Below, one piece after another: positions 32,720 through 38,803 of a stretch of 64,000 bases of DNA. This stretch comes from Sulfurovum lithotrophicum (lineage in GTDB: Bacteria; Campylobacterota; Campylobacteria; Campylobacterales; Sulfurovaceae), in contig NZ_CP011308.1 in assembly GCF_000987835.1 (NCBI RefSeq), forward strand, positions 1,612,001-1,676,000, read 5' to 3'. How positions within the stretch are numbered: the stretch's first letter is position 1; each line of letters opens with the position of its first letter. Below the pieces are notes generated by a model. That model saw only the letters and a list, made by a program, of their open reading frames with translations, searched no databases and had not been told where the DNA came from. The position numbers and the translations under genes were made by a program.

Positions 32720-35272
32720 TTATACATCATTACAGCTCTTGATCTTATCTTTGTATTTCACATCCAAGAACTTAAAATGCTTTTTAGCATAAGATATCTG
32801 CCATGCTTCCCTACTTCGCATATCTCTATGTTTATCACTTCCTTTTGTTTCTACCACAAAAGCTCCTTCACTCTCATCATATTTGATAACTGCAAAATCG
32901 GGACTATAATTTCCTAATGGTGTTTTGATTTTAAATCGCTTAGGGAGCTTTGCAAAAAATTTGAAGTGTGTATCAGCACATCCAATAAAGTCTTTTTCTA
33001 TACCAGAATCCCACTGCTCTGCATCATATAAGCCTCTTTTGCAATCTTCCAAGTCATACCCCTCTAGTACATCAGGAAATACATTGACAAATTCATAATA
33101 TTCACCGTTTTCTCTATAGGCTATACCATCGGCTGTTTCTGTAAGTACTTCATGCTTTGCATCATCAAATGCTTCTAATGCTCTTTTGATGTAGCTGTCA
33201 CTATTACGGATAAAAGGTTTCAGGTCAACTTCACCCAATATCTCTATAATCATCTTTCTGGTAAGTCCTATCTCTTGTTCTATCAAAGAGACCAGGTCTG
33301 GCAATGTCTGTTCAAAGTTCAAGCCATAACTTTTCTCTTCAGCCACATAACCATAAATATCATCTTCTATCGTACCAAACTGTCTTACAATCTTTTGTTC
33401 TCTAGTTTCTATCTCTTGCAGTTTTCTGATGACTTTTTCTTTGTATCTCTCTTCGTCCAGTTTGAGTTCAAAAATCGTTTTACTTTTTAGCTTTTTCCAC
33501 AAAGCTCTAAATTCATTACTAAGTTCCACTTCTGCATATTTTCGTGTAGCAACCTTTTTCTTCTTTATATTATTTGGAATGCTACCGTCACTTACCCCAC
33601 TTGCTTCATACTCAAGCTGTAAACTTTTGGCAAACTCATCAAAACTTTCATTTGCAACCACGGTAAGCCTGTTGATCTCTTTGTCCTCTACTCTATTCCC
33701 GAACTTATCTACTGCCAGACGCACACCACGCCCCAGTATCTGTCGTTTTTTCATCTCTGATTTTGTATCGTTAAGCGTGGTGATGAAAAATACATTCGGA
33801 TTATCCCATCCCTCTTTTAAGGCACTATGAGAAAAAATAAAACTTGTCTTCTCTTCGAAACTCAAAAGTTTCTCTTTTTCTTTCATAATCAAGTCATAGG
33901 TTTTTTTTGCCAGTTTTCTATCACTGTCATTGTTTTTCAAGTCATCTATATACCCTGACTTTCGCTTTGCAAAATAGTACTTATAGACATCACTGGCCTC
34001 TATCTCTTTAAAACTTTCATAATTCACTTTCAGTCTATCGAACTCTTGACAAAAGTGTCTTTGCATCCATCCATCCTCTTCTTCAAGAAAGTTTGCCACC
34101 CTGTCTATAAAAAAAAGACTCAACACCTTGATATTTTTGGCTTTTAGTACTTCGTATTTTTCCATATGCATGGCTATAGCTTCTGTTATCTGCTGTTCTT
34201 GTATCTGACGTTTCACCTGACCATTGATCTGACTCAATTCTAAGCGTAAACCATTCTCAAACTGTATAAACATCTCTCTTGCGTTTATCTCATTGACTAT
34301 AAACCCAGAGTAGATTGGGTTCTTTGTTTTATCCTTCAGGCTGTCATTGCCTTTTATCTTGACTGATTTTGTCACAAATTCATCTTTATTTTTGATGATG
34401 AGTTCCAGTGTTGCCACGGGTCTTTTTGACTTTTTGTCTATCTCTATTTTGAGTACATTCACATAAGTATCATTGACCGTTTGATTTTCACTAAGGGCTA
34501 GTACATCTATCTGTTTTACCAAGCCTTGCGCCAATGCTTCTCTAGGCGTAAGTGTGTAGATTAAGTTGTAGTAGTTTTTATGTGTAGCAGAAAATCTAAG
34601 CGTAAAGAGTGGATTGAGCTCTGCTATAGAGGTTTTGCTCAGTTCACTTTCCATATTTTGTGGTTCATCAAGTATGAGTATGGGGTTGGTCTTTTGCAAG
34701 CTCTCTTTAGGTGTGCCTGCAAATCCCTCTTGTGTCATGTTTAGTATGGTATTGGCTCTTTTAAAACTGTCTATAGTCATCACCATGACCTGTAAACCAT
34801 CATCACGTATAAAGTGCTTCAAACTCCCTAGCCTGGAAGAGTCATACTCAAAGTAATCATAAGGAAACCTATACTGTGAAGAAAAGTGTGCTTTCATACT
34901 TGCCAAAGAACTGAGTACTCCTTCTCGAATAGCGATAGAGGGTGTAATGATAATGTACTTATTCCACCCATACTTTTCATACAGTTCCAGTATAGACTTG
35001 ATATACACATAGGTCTTCCCCGTTCCTGTCTCCATCTCCACAGAAAAGTCACGACTCTGTAACATCAAAGATTCTTCTATGCCATTCTCTCTTTGTACCC
35101 GCTGTAAGTTCTCCAGTATCGCTACATCATCCAGAATGTATCCATTGCCACACACGGCTTCACCATCAAAAATATCATACTCACATACCTGTCTGTTCTG
35201 ACCCTGAAAAAGATCTACTATAGACGTTATGGCTTTGGTCTGGTGGGGTTGAGTAGTGTATTTTAGCTGCAT
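32720..35272 (-). CDS. res: type III restriction endonuclease subunit Res
   Basis: An 850-residue protein from the ATG at 35272 (MQLKYTTQPHQTKAI), preceded by GGAAAGAGAG and overlapping the abi stop by ten bases. It is an SF2 helicase with Walker A in VEMETGTGKTYVYIKS (about residue 80), a DExx-type box ILDEPQNM (about 200) and motif VI near KRQILGRGVRLAVD. The C-terminal endonuclease domain has NYSPDFAVIKY and AFVVETKGS, a PD-(D/E)xK site. It cuts DNA after translocation from unmethylated sites recognised by Mod. The gene looks intact. Confidence 0.95.
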   Translation of the reverse strand: MQLKYTTQPHQTKAITSIVDLFQGQNRQVCEYDIFDGEAVCGNGYILDDVAILENLQRVQRENGIEESLMLQSRDFSVEMETGTGKTYVYIKSILELYEKYGWNKYIIITPSIAIREGVLSSLASMKAHFSSQYRFPYDYFEYDSSRLGSLKHFIRDDGLQVMVMTIDSFKRANTILNMTQEGFAGTPKESLQKTNPILILDEPQNMESELSKTSIAELNPLFTLRFSATHKNYYNLIYTLTPREALAQGLVKQIDVLALSENQTVNDTYVNVLKIEIDKKSKRPVATLELIIKNKDEFVTKSVKIKGNDSLKDKTKNPIYSGFIVNEINAREMFIQFENGLRLELSQINGQVKRQIQEQQITEAIAMHMEKYEVLKAKNIKVLSLFFIDRVANFLEEEDGWMQRHFCQEFDRLKVNYESFKEIEASDVYKYYFAKRKSGYIDDLKNNDSDRKLAKKTYDLIMKEKEKLLSFEEKTSFIFSHSALKEGWDNPNVFFITTLNDTKSEMKKRQILGRGVRLAVDKFGNRVEDKEINRLTVVANESFDEFAKSLQLEYEASGVSDGSIPNNIKKKKVATRKYAEVELSNEFRALWKKLKSKTIFELKLDEERYKEKVIRKLQEIETREQKIVRQFGTIEDDIYGYVAEEKSYGLNFEQTLPDLVSLIEQEIGLTRKMIIEILGEVDLKPFIRNSDSYIKRALEAFDDAKHEVLTETADGIAYRENGEYYEFVNVFPDVLEGYDLEDCKRGLYDAEQWDSGIEKDFIGCADTHFKFFAKLPKRFKIKTPLGNYSPDFAVIKYDESEGAFVVETKGSDKHRDMRSREAWQISYAKKHFKFLDVKYKDKIKSCNDV

Positions 35273-36144
35273 AATCTCTCTTTCCAATCTTCACTAAATC
35301 CCATATTATGCAGAGGTATATCAGGATACTCCTCCAGCAATGAGACTATTTTGCTTTTAAATCCATCGGCTGTTTCAAGCCTGTCAAACATATAGCTCAA
35401 CATAAGTATCACGACAAATATCTTATCATTTTTTAATCCCTGAAACGCTGTTACTTTTTTAGGGAGGAGTGCTTTGATAGCGAACTGTTTGTTCCACACT
35501 CTTCCGTGATGTGCACAGATGTTACGTACATGATTGGTGACATGCAGCCAGTTTTTGAGTACTTTTGGTGGTATAAGCAGTTTGGCTGTCATGGTTTCAT
35601 GCTCTGGTTTAAGGGCTTTAAAAAGTTTGGAAAGTGTGGAAAAAGAAATGATCTCTACCATCATCCATACAGGAAGTATGTCAGAGCTATACTGCTTTTT
35701 AAAATGCGTCACAAAGGCTTCTCTCGAACGGTTTGTTTCTCTTTGTATCGTTTGCATGAGATTGATGTACTCTGTATAGCCAATATTCAGATTTTCTTTT
35801 TTCATATAGCCAAAAGCACCTGTCTCTTTGGAGAGGTTATAGGCTATATTTGCCCTGATATTGATCTCCAAAGTTTCTATGGCATCAAATACAATCTTAC
35901 GCAGTGCTTTATCAAAATAATACACTCTAAGAATTTCTTCAAATCTCGTATCAGCATTAAAAATATCTTTTTCATACTGAAACGGCAAGAAATAGGCACT
36001 CAATCTATAGTAGCTGATATGCTCCAGTTTTTTACGTACCAAATCTGTATCTGTGACTACCAGACCACGAGATATTAGCAAGGCTATCTGTTCATCATAA
36101 TTAAGGTGTTTTTTTGTGAAAGTGTGGGAAATCATAAGAAGCAC
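35263..36144 (-). CDS. Abi_2 (AbiD/AbiF-like) HEPN abortive-infection protein
   Basis: 293 residues. It starts at GTG 36144 or, more likely, ATG 36135 (MISHTFTKKHLNYDEQIA). The N-terminal region LLISRGLVVTDTDLVRKKLEHISYYRLSAYFLPF is the Abi_2 signature. The C-terminal half contains NHVRNICAHHGRVWNKQF, an R-x4-H motif (about Arg205-His210) typical of HEPN ribonucleases. Abi_2 proteins are thought to arrest infected cells by RNA cleavage. The gene lies between mod and res, all on one strand, and overlaps res. It has its own strong promoter. Confidence 0.9.
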   Translation of the reverse strand: MLLMISHTFTKKHLNYDEQIALLISRGLVVTDTDLVRKKLEHISYYRLSAYFLPFQYEKDIFNADTRFEEILRVYYFDKALRKIVFDAIETLEINIRANIAYNLSKETGAFGYMKKENLNIGYTEYINLMQTIQRETNRSREAFVTHFKKQYSSDILPVWMMVEIISFSTLSKLFKALKPEHETMTAKLLIPPKVLKNWLHVTNHVRNICAHHGRVWNKQFAIKALLPKKVTAFQGLKNDKIFVVILMLSYMFDRLETADGFKSKIVSLLEEYPDIPLHNMGFSEDWKERLCS

Positions 36145-36191
36145 TTCCCCGTTGGCACATTGTAAAGAGGTGGAGGAAGTATGTTGGGAGT

Positions 36192-36220
36192 ATTATAGCA
36201 CAGTGCACTGAAAATGTCAA
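36192..36220 (-). promoter_or_regulatory. perfect-consensus promoter in front of the abi gene
   Basis: On the minus strand TTGACA (36215-36220) and TATAAT (36192-36197) are separated by exactly 17 bases, the ideal sigma-70 layout. Transcription should begin near 36185. The resulting short leader has ACTTCC pairing with GGAAGT around GGGGAAG, the only candidate ribosome site. Confidence 0.85.
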
Positions 36221-36226
36221 CTTCCA

Positions 36227-38101
36227 CTACAGCACCTCCAAATCCAAATTCTCACGCAAGTTTAACTTCACATTGGTGGTCAATGCCTTTTCATAACAGA
36301 TGAGTTTTGCATCTTTAGGTACATCGTGTACGATATCACCTGTTATCTCTTTGTCAAAACTAAAGTAGAAAATTTTCTCATCTTCACTAAGCGTAATAAA
36401 ACTGTAGTTATCTGTTTTTACTTCACCGATCTCTGCACTCAATGTAAACCCATTTTTAAGCCCTACTTCATAGACGATGTCCAGCGCTTTAGCTCCCTGG
36501 GTGAGGATATTCTCATGAAACATACTCATCTTGAGCATCTTCTCTATCTCTTCGTAGCTCATATCTGGTCGTTTTTTTACCTCTTTGAAGATTTGGAAGT
36601 TGGAGTTGTCCAATCTAAAGGACTTGAAACCCTCTTGGTAGTCCAGCTTTTTCATCGCTCTTTTGATGCGTTCTTTGGTGATATCAGATATCTTTGTGTA
36701 CCCTGCTTTGTAGGCTTCACTCTTTTCATCAGTAGCTTCAGGGAGTTGGACTAAGATGTACTTGCGGTTACCACCGTCTTCTTTATTTAAATCCATAACT
36801 GCATGGGCAGTTGTCCCACTTCCTGCGAAGAAATCTAGAATAATGTCATCATTTTTAGTGACAAAACCAATTAAGCGACTAAGGATAAAATGTGACTTTG
36901 GGTTATCAAAGACTGAACGACCCATCATTGACTCAAAGACTTTAGTTGAAGTTCTTCCATCCTCATAAATCATACTTCTAAGTACATCTTTGGCATTCAA
37001 TAATCTTTTTTTAGGCTTTATTAAAACTGTCTCATCTTTGCCAAAGAGTATATCATTATTGTTAATCATATTCCTCATTGTATTTTCTGGGAACCGAAAC
37101 CCTTTTGCAGGTATTTTACAAGGTTTTCTTGTTACTTCATGTAGCACTTCGTATTTATATCCGCCAAATTTTGTATTAGCAATATCACCATCATGGAAGA
37201 CACCTTTGTCATCTACATTGTCATAGTGGGTTACTTTGTCAAGTTCATTTTTATTACTTTTAATCCATTTTCGTAATTCAAATTGGATAACTTCTGTATC
37301 ATCGTCAAATTTTTCTTTCAATTCTAAATATTTTTTTTGAATCTTTAATGCATTTTCACTTTTACGTTCCCAATTATCTTGTAACTCTATATTTTTTGCA
37401 TAAACAATCATATACTCATGCTCAACATTTATTTGAGTTTTATTATTATCTGTCGCAGTTTTCAGGATCAATTGTCCTACAAAATTCTCCTCCCCATAAA
37501 TCTCATCCATCACCTTACGAAGATTATGCACTTCATCATCATCTATACTCACAAAAATGACCCCATCATCTTTAAGAAGATTACGGCTTAGCCAAAGCCT
37601 TGGGTATATCATGTTAAGCCAGTTGGTGTGTCTGCGTCCTGTACTGTTGGTTTTGGTAGTGGTGTAACCCTTATTACGGAGTTGATCTGTCTGTATGAGG
37701 TAGTTTTGTATGCTGTCACCCCATGTGTCAGAGTAGACAAAGTCTTTGTCTTTGTTATACGGAGGATCGATGTAAATCATCTTGACTTTTTTGTGGTAGG
37801 AGAGTTGCAGGAGCTTCAGCACTTCCAGGTTGTCACCTTCTATGAAAACATTATCACCATCAGGGATTTCTTTGTCTTCATCCACTTTCAGTGTAGCATT
37901 GGTCTTTTCGCGTATGGTCTTGTAGCAGTCTCTTTTGCCAGCCCAGGTAAAGCTGTAATGCTCACGAGACTCATTGACTTCATCAGCAAATACGTCTTTC
38001 AGTTTCTCAGGAATAATCTCCCCATCTTCAAATATCTCAGGAAGTATCTGTTGGAGTTGGCGTAGCTTTTGCTGTTTGATATCGAGGCTCTCTAAAGTCA
38101 C
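36227..38101 (-). CDS. mod: type III DNA-methyltransferase subunit Mod
   Basis: 624 residues from a GTG start preceded by AGGA. It is a beta-class N6-adenine methyltransferase: the catalytic KMIYIDPPYNKDKDF lies at about residue 110 and the SAM motif DFFAGSGTTAHAV at about 423, the catalytic-before-SAM order of type III Mod. The middle (about 190-380) is the variable target-recognition region. Mod sets specificity and protects host DNA. An A8 tract near 37331 is in this gene but is short for phase variation. The target site cannot be read from sequence. Confidence 0.95.
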   Translation of the reverse strand: MTLESLDIKQQKLRQLQQILPEIFEDGEIIPEKLKDVFADEVNESREHYSFTWAGKRDCYKTIREKTNATLKVDEDKEIPDGDNVFIEGDNLEVLKLLQLSYHKKVKMIYIDPPYNKDKDFVYSDTWGDSIQNYLIQTDQLRNKGYTTTKTNSTGRRHTNWLNMIYPRLWLSRNLLKDDGVIFVSIDDDEVHNLRKVMDEIYGEENFVGQLILKTATDNNKTQINVEHEYMIVYAKNIELQDNWERKSENALKIQKKYLELKEKFDDDTEVIQFELRKWIKSNKNELDKVTHYDNVDDKGVFHDGDIANTKFGGYKYEVLHEVTRKPCKIPAKGFRFPENTMRNMINNNDILFGKDETVLIKPKKRLLNAKDVLRSMIYEDGRTSTKVFESMMGRSVFDNPKSHFILSRLIGFVTKNDDIILDFFAGSGTTAHAVMDLNKEDGGNRKYILVQLPEATDEKSEAYKAGYTKISDITKERIKRAMKKLDYQEGFKSFRLDNSNFQIFKEVKKRPDMSYEEIEKMLKMSMFHENILTQGAKALDIVYEVGLKNGFTLSAEIGEVKTDNYSFITLSEDEKIFYFSFDKEITGDIVHDVPKDAKLICYEKALTTNVKLNLRENLDLEVL

Positions 38102-38247: not shown

Positions 38248-38565
38248 CTACATAAACCGCATACAAAGCACATCGATCACTTTCTGCTGAAGTTTGGGAT
38301 CAAGCAGGGAAATTTTCTTGTCAAGGCGCTGCTTTGAGATCGTCCTTACCTGATGACAGAGCAGTATCGCCTCTTTTCCGTTTAGTGTAAATAACACTTC
38401 ATTCGGATAGACCTTTCTTCCGGTCTTTCGTGATGTTACCGGAATGACCGTTACAATATCCATCTGATTTTCGATATCGTTAGAAATGACAAGAACCGGC
38501 CTGTGACCTGCCTGTTCTCTGCCTACAACAGGACTGAGGTTTGCCCAGTAGATGTTAAAATGCAT
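38248..38565 (-). CDS. mazF: MazF/PemK-family toxin (mRNA interferase)
   Basis: 105 residues. NIYWANLSPVVGREQAGHRP and VLVISNDIENQ form the MazF beta-barrel start, with the conserved GREQAGHRP loop holding the catalytic Arg; VTVIPVTSR and AILLCHQVRTISKQRL complete the fold. MazF cleaves mRNA at short motifs. The gene overlaps the upstream antitoxin gene by 11 bases, the standard order. It sits just upstream of mod on the same strand, separated by about 150 bases. Confidence 0.93.
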   Translation of the reverse strand: MHFNIYWANLSPVVGREQAGHRPVLVISNDIENQMDIVTVIPVTSRKTGRKVYPNEVLFTLNGKEAILLCHQVRTISKQRLDKKISLLDPKLQQKVIDVLCMRFM

Positions 38566-38803
38566 CTACTTCACCGTCTGCATATTTAAAATCTTCCTGT
38601 ATCTGCTCAATATCTTCAATGACCATGGGATCATTGGCCATCTGTTCGATCTGTTTTCTGTAATTCTCTTTTTTGATCGATTCGACCGTTTGTTTCAGGG
38701 AAGAGGAAACAAGATCTGAAAAGTTCTTGAAGTGATCCATGACACCCTCCTCTTTCAACTGTAAAAAAAGATGTTCGTCGATCGAAACTGTTTTTCTTAT
38801 CAT
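38555..38803 (-). CDS. ribbon-helix-helix type antitoxin of the MazF-like toxin
   Basis: 82 residues. The N-terminus MIRKTVSIDEHLFLQLKEEG has the strand-helix pattern of ribbon-helix-helix DNA-binding proteins. The C-terminal half is acidic (IEDIEQIQEDFKYADGEVDAF), typical of a toxin-neutralising tail. Position and overlap with mazF make it the antitoxin. An AAGGATTTCAG site precedes the ATG. It probably represses its own promoter through the inverted repeat at 38816-38836. Confidence 0.87.
   Translation of the reverse strand: MIRKTVSIDEHLFLQLKEEGVMDHFKNFSDLVSSSLKQTVESIKKENYRKQIEQMANDPMVIEDIEQIQEDFKYADGEVDAF

Follow-up and report, generated by a model that had tools for sequence, protein, structure and literature searches.

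A type III restriction-modification (R-M) locus with an additional toxin-like gene between mod and res was analysed in Sulfurovum lithotrophicum. It is located in a stretch of 64,000 nucleotides (nt) of contig NZ_CP011308.1 (positions 1,612,001 to 1,676,000), called the window in the following, and positions are those of the window unless stated otherwise. Three genes are encoded on the minus strand. For mod (36227..38101, GTG start) the product is a type III DNA methyltransferase of 624 amino acids, identified by Pfam (N6_N4_Mtase, 99.9 bits), by PADLOC (MTase_III, 526 bits) and by the motifs DPPYN and FAGSGTT in its translation. It is followed by abi (35263..36135, ATG at 36135), coding for a putative Abi_2/AbiD HEPN ribonuclease toxin of 290 amino acids (Pfam Abi_2, 177.6 bits with a cut-off of 25.6; PADLOC AbiD, 258 bits). 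The third gene, res (32720..35272), encodes the type III restriction subunit of 850 amino acids with superfamily 2 (SF2) helicase and PD-ExK. Matches to ResIII (55 bits) and RE_endonuc (103 bits) in Pfam and to REase_III (655 bits) in PADLOC were obtained, and the motifs GTGKT, DEPQ and PD-x13-ExK are present. The start of res at ATG 35272 is backed by homologues that begin with MQIKY. Pfam, NCBIfam and PADLOC were concordant in naming a type III methyltransferase, Abi_2/AbiD and a type III restriction enzyme. With a DPPY-type Mod carrying FxGxG and a Res with SF2 helicase and PD-ExK the locus belongs to the type III R-M systems; methylation and cleavage by Mod and Res are predicted activities. 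The coordinates and common strand of the three genes in the first-pass annotation, as well as its HEPN Abi gene with an R-x4-H motif within a type III operon, are confirmed by these matches and motifs.

The overlap of abi and res reported there was also found. Given the starts at ATG 36135 and ATG 35272, it amounts to 10 nt after refinement of the start codons (35263..35272, minus strand, ATGCAGCTAA). The arrangement of abi stop and res start suggests translational coupling of res. A similar 10-nt overlap is present in locus L236, though another gene occupies the position between mod and res there.

The non-coding leader between mod and abi, considered of interest from the beginning, has a length of 91 nt and contains a sigma-70 promoter and a conserved, covarying hairpin RNA. 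The promoter (36192..36220, minus strand) agrees with the consensus in 12 of 12 positions (TTGACA-17-TATAAT), has an extended -10 TG and is the only 12/12 sigma-70 promoter in the window. By reading, a 12/12 promoter was also seen in the orthologous locus L069, from a Sulfurovum metagenome-assembled genome, and in the type I locus L005. The promoter spacer includes a palindrome, CAGTGCACTG (36200-36209), as a candidate operator. Its frequency in the window corresponds to chance, and only the palindromes at the equivalent spot in L069 (GGTGCACC) and L005 (AGTGCACT) favour an operator.

The hairpin RNA (36143..36185, minus strand), by sequence a relative of abiF RNA, was delimited by conservation, covariation and the match of a covariance model, R1. 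Its 5' arm (36180-36173) is followed by CAC (36172-36170), the conserved loop CUCUUUACAAU, GUG (36158-36156), the joining CCAAC and the 3' arm (36150-36143), all on the minus strand. Within the 3' arm lies the Shine-Dalgarno (SD) sequence of abi, GGGGAAGU (36143..36150, minus strand), 7 nt before ATG 36135; the corresponding sequence in L069 is GAGGAAGU. With the SD sequence in this position, folding of the RNA and translation of the toxin would be mutually exclusive. Behind the stem, the window RNA continues with CUUCUU and reaches AUG 7 nt from the stem, without an intrinsic terminator. Throughout the window clade the start codon is found 3-8 nt past the stem and the 3' arm is the SD sequence itself. 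In most of the distant loci a U-run (terminator) comes after the stem, with SD sequence and start 13-50 nt further on.

Almost every AbiD homologue that was found in the class Campylobacteria has the conserved block AACAUACUUCCUCCACCUCUUUACAAUGUGCCAACGGGGAAGU upstream of its gene. The arms co-vary, with the pairs ACUUCCUC/GGGGAAGU in the window, ACCCCCUC/GAGGGGGU in genome G125, ACCCCUCC/GGAGGGGU in G217 and GUCCCUUC/GAAGGGAU in G174. An alignment of 13 sequences showed pairing in 97% of cells compared with 37-55% when the partner was slid, and five of the eight outer pairs were altered on both sides. With 85 sequences all 11 of 11 pairs were altered on both sides, in an alignment that was fitted to the model and therefore leans towards the structure. 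R1 matched the window genome at a single site (36133-36193, E 1e-15, the window being a training sequence). Applied to 80 loci from other genomes, it detected the RNA directly before abi in varied taxa, including Lentisphaeria, Ignavibacteriales, Nitrosomonas, Pseudomonadales and Chitinophaga. With the extended model R2 the RNA was located immediately ahead of abi in about 75 of 80 loci from many phyla; about 50 of these positive loci were not among its building sequences. Weak matches in G009 and G300 (E 0.004-0.02) are situated inside genes and were rejected as chance.

Some variants of this arrangement were observed. Two to three tandem RNA copies, some with diverged loops, precede abi in L082 (7654-7984), L138 (40-306), L126 (7701-7958) and L121 (7665-7982); all four loci are embedded in R-M operons, an observation made after the fact and with small numbers. 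At L085 (7884-7949, minus strand) the RNA is encoded directly upstream of abi but in opposite orientation, an argument for its ability to act in trans. The RNA was kept and abi lost in L149 (G122) and L150 (G131), and the copy of G131 is located between hsdS and hsdR.

The Rfam family of abiF RNA, RF03085, has a cut-off of 37 bits. The leaders reached 47.1 bits in G015 and 41.0 bits in G334, both above this value, and 36.8 bits in G029, just below it. Further matches under the cut-off were obtained for G367, G361, G125, G288 and G060, and the same bases were matched in all these leaders. G015 has a type III mod...abi-res locus, so that an Rfam-passing leader RNA homologous to that of the window is found in the same type of operon. 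Since RF03085 matches the homologous leaders at the same bases, the window RNA is, judged by its homologues, a divergent relative of abiF RNA and not a member of RF03085. A hairpin with a CC-UCU core and covariation is present directly upstream of the Abi_2 gene. An Rfam scan of the locus alone was discarded, as it gave only snoRNA-like chance matches.

The protein supports this relationship. Its R-x4-H motif occurs as RNICAHH, and R204 and H209 are invariant in ten sequences. AbiF-type proteins have reportedly been proposed as ancestors of Cas13. A link to RNA-controlled AbiF toxins and to this ancestry had been put forward in the first-pass annotation, and it gains support from a profile of ten AbiD sequences, which matches PDB 8vz6, the structure of PbAbiF with its non-coding RNA (PMC12737573), over the full length with E 3e-77. 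R204 and H209 of AbiD align with the RNSCCH site of 8vz6. For C. difficile, experiments showed that AbiF is toxic, that R202 and H207 are needed and that the RNA RCd22 counteracts the toxin both in cis and in trans (PMC12373285). By analogy, binding and inhibition by the RNA, as in a type III toxin-antitoxin system, toxicity and catalysis by R204 and H209 would be expected for the window protein.

For the recurrence of the gene order, the 80 best AbiD relatives among the genome contigs were examined, ranked by similarity to the window, so that frequencies are not population estimates. At least 22 of them lie in R-M operons, 3 of type III (L069, L082, L103) and 19 of type I. These counts are lower bounds, as contigs often break off close to the locus and window-like Abi are over-represented in the list; the R-M contexts of selected AbiD loci were spot-checked with PADLOC. 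In 16 of the 22 loci the restriction (R) subunit is encoded by the next gene. L069 carries mod-abi-res with an Abi 93% identical, but was ruled out as an independent recurrence, since it is the window insertion itself, seen at the corresponding site of a sister species. In L090 mod fragments remain around abi. Within the class, mod...abi-res was also found in G015 and in G237, the latter with a divergent Abi_2, and genomes of the Helicobacter family have the order hsdM-abi with hsdS/hsdR downstream. A FastTree phylogeny of 101 Abi proteins requires five changes of the type III label, four of them forced by well supported branches. The association with type III systems is polyphyletic, with at least four separate events, and hence arose or moved several times. 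The search for mod-Abi_2-res neighbourhoods, chosen beforehand as one that could speak against the reading of a combined locus, thus returned several independent type III and many type I lineages. In G015 (L253:5281-5661, reverse-strand coordinates) a duplicate of the res 5'-end precedes the RNA-abi cassette and an intact res follows it; the duplicate is possibly a trace of cassette insertion.

We consider it moderately probable that the window contains an RNA-controlled AbiF-type toxin module, captured between mod and res of a type III R-M operon and serving as a back-up layer. Gene order, promoter, covarying RNA, SD sequence in the stem, overlap and recurrence can be read from the DNA; beyond that, we infer the following course for how the toxin is triggered and cooperates with restriction. 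The strong internal promoter would give a short hairpin RNA, which would bind and inhibit the AbiD HEPN ribonuclease in analogy to AbiFr and RCd22. As its 3' arm doubles as SD sequence of the toxin, the folded RNA would in addition block translation of its own toxin, and res would be translated from the same message via the 10-nt overlap. If restriction is overwhelmed by a phage, or if the phage halts host transcription or destroys the hairpin RNA, less of this RNA would be available. AbiD would then be made and freed, and RNA cleavage would lead to dormancy or death, so that AbiD would act as a back-up layer behind DNA restriction. The two-layer defence of the first-pass annotation, with RNA cleavage if restriction fails, would be a reasonable reading. 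In this way DNA restriction may be coupled directly to cell suicide, and a hairpin of 43 nt would be the RNA sensor that ties restriction to RNA-cleaving suicide.

Several points weigh against this proposal. Single-sequence folding of the window RNA was modestly better than that of shuffled sequences (z about -1.3), which is too weak as proof of structure, and covariation was used instead. RF03085 gave no match on the window leader at E values up to 10. Without a terminator, a free short RNA would need processing or pausing. Most AbiD relatives were found outside R-M operons, so that R-M is not required for the module. Finally, the position between mod and res takes many unrelated genes, so that position alone does not prove cooperation.

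Possible but unlikely is an addiction module, in which the RNA-AbiD pair would stabilise the R-M island against loss and anti-phage action would be secondary. CreTA, which stabilises CRISPR-Cas, is the model for such a function. RNA-toxin pairs are addiction-type elements, and as the module is inside the operon, loss of the operon removes the antitoxin. Moreover, the R-M island was acquired, and its site had been empty before. The AT-richer composition, from which acquisition by transfer had initially been suggested, was seen as a lower GC content (36-39% over 33-39 kb compared with 44-50% in the stretches up- and downstream). Acquisition is supported by an empty-site comparison within the genus, which is represented by 41 genomes. 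The fdh-like gene and argD that flank the locus are directly adjacent in many genus members (empty-site loci L210, L216, L219, L222, L226-L228, L230, L231 and L233), hence the R-M locus is an insertion. On the other hand, G122 and G131 with RNA but without abi indicate that the toxin can be lost first, and known AbiD/F members were isolated as phage-resistance genes; neither point is decisive.

Unlikely as well is passive cargo, i.e. a gap between mod and res that tolerates insertions and is used by the Abi module as an independent defence gene. Type III systems had been assumed to have mod and res normally adjacent. This does not hold for the class. Among 30 type III loci with both ends seen, the window included, mod and res are adjacent in 14 (three with split mod), whereas 16 have other genes in between. 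Besides Abi, these include DUF3800, an AAA ATPase with DUF4276, a KAP ATPase, a Schlafen AlbA_2 protein, a Pycsar cyclase, Fic, a PrrC-related ATPase, a whole type II cyclic oligonucleotide-based antiphage signalling system (CBASS) and an MNT pair; some of these names were read by eye and part were checked with profiles. The junctions with res in these loci frequently overlap or are 0-4 nt apart. The gap of G031 contains a patatin CBASS with cyclase, E1-E2 and JAB, that of G233 the Pycsar cyclase, that of G029 the PrrC-related ATPase and Fic, and that of G195 the MNT pair. In these class relatives (loci L250, L242, L247 and L257) whole defence systems thus occupy the gap. Such unrelated contents, including whole CBASS and Pycsar, are in line with passive cargo, as is the module's own promoter. 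However, the repeated placement directly before the R subunit with an overlapping junction and the recurrence in type I operons of different gene order suggest selection for position.

A further reading is rather unlikely: the abiF-type RNA would be one switch for both layers, hiding the SD sequence, neutralising the toxin and limiting res through the overlap. In that case loss of the RNA during infection would raise toxin and restriction subunit together, and restriction would be under RNA-based control in those operons where the module precedes the R subunit. Unlikely, too, is a timing switch after the model of the controller proteins that delay restriction in type II systems, with RNA leader and AbiD controlling the restriction subunit until methylation is complete. 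It agrees with the place of abi, which immediately precedes the R subunit in 16 of the 22 R-M loci (types I and III), with the frequent overlaps of abi and R start and stop, with the SD sequence inside the RNA stem and with a promoter that sets abi-res apart from mod. Against it, an R gene is missing behind most AbiD/RNA modules, other genes in the mod-res gap overlap res as well although they have no such RNA, and the conserved R-x4-H implies selection for catalysis.

The proposed back-up module can be compared with known systems. AbiF/AbiD (PF07751) with abiF RNA (RCd22, AbiFr) has the same full-length protein family, the same R-x4-H, the same hairpin architecture with the core CCUCUn..ACAAUG directly upstream, and an own sigma-70 promoter. 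Unlike these systems, the window module is situated between mod and res, and its RNA is too divergent for RF03085 and has no terminator U-run. An intrinsic terminator with a separate SD sequence downstream, as in RCd22, was not found in the window leader, where the SD sequence is in the stem. The kind of type III system represented by EcoP1I and EcoP15I has the same Mod and Res with complete motifs on one strand, but no toxin module between them. The HEPN survey of 2013 (Anantharaman et al., PMC3710099) names Abi2/AbiF/AbiD among the genes embedded in R-M operons and proposes multi-layer defence. It predates the RNA antitoxin and, in the text consulted, does not describe the RNA, an SD sequence in the stem or the position before the R subunit. 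According to the same survey (PMC3710099), PrrC-EcoprrI (type Ic) is likewise a HEPN ribonuclease in an R-M operon and a second line if restriction is blocked. PrrC is kept in check by the protein complex of the R-M system, whereas the likely inhibitor of the window toxin would be its cognate RNA; the window Abi also differs in having no ATPase domain. Like other cases of 'guilt-by-embedding', the locus has extra defence genes within a known defence operon, but what is embedded here is an RNA together with its toxin, under a promoter of their own, and this unit recurs directly before the R subunit of two R-M types.

The presence of Abi_2 genes in R-M operons has been known since 2013, and the control of AbiF by RNA since 2025. 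For mod-Abi_2-res and for an RNA module inside R-M operons no description was found in a literature search of open-licence papers, which was not exhaustive. The combined, SD-embedded and R-coupled RNA-toxin module is a new form of these. It joins two separately described facts, Abi_2 HEPN proteins in R-M operons and the control of AbiF-type proteins by a small RNA. It also extends abiF RNA well past detection by Rfam, to a compact version whose antitoxin stem and toxin ribosome-binding site consist of the same bases. Furthermore, the mod-res gap is a place to look for more defence genes.

A second type III R-M locus, distant from the first, is present in the same genome (G000:C1:839282-841063) and has mod and res adjacent. 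Directly upstream of mod in the window, a MazEF-like toxin-antitoxin pair was found (38248-38803). It was ruled out as a part of the system. MazEF is absent from L069, which has mod-abi-res at the same site, and in G405 (L212) MazEF and a gene of 100 amino acids occupy the site without R-M genes. Hence, the pair is an element of its own that shares the insertion site with the R-M locus.

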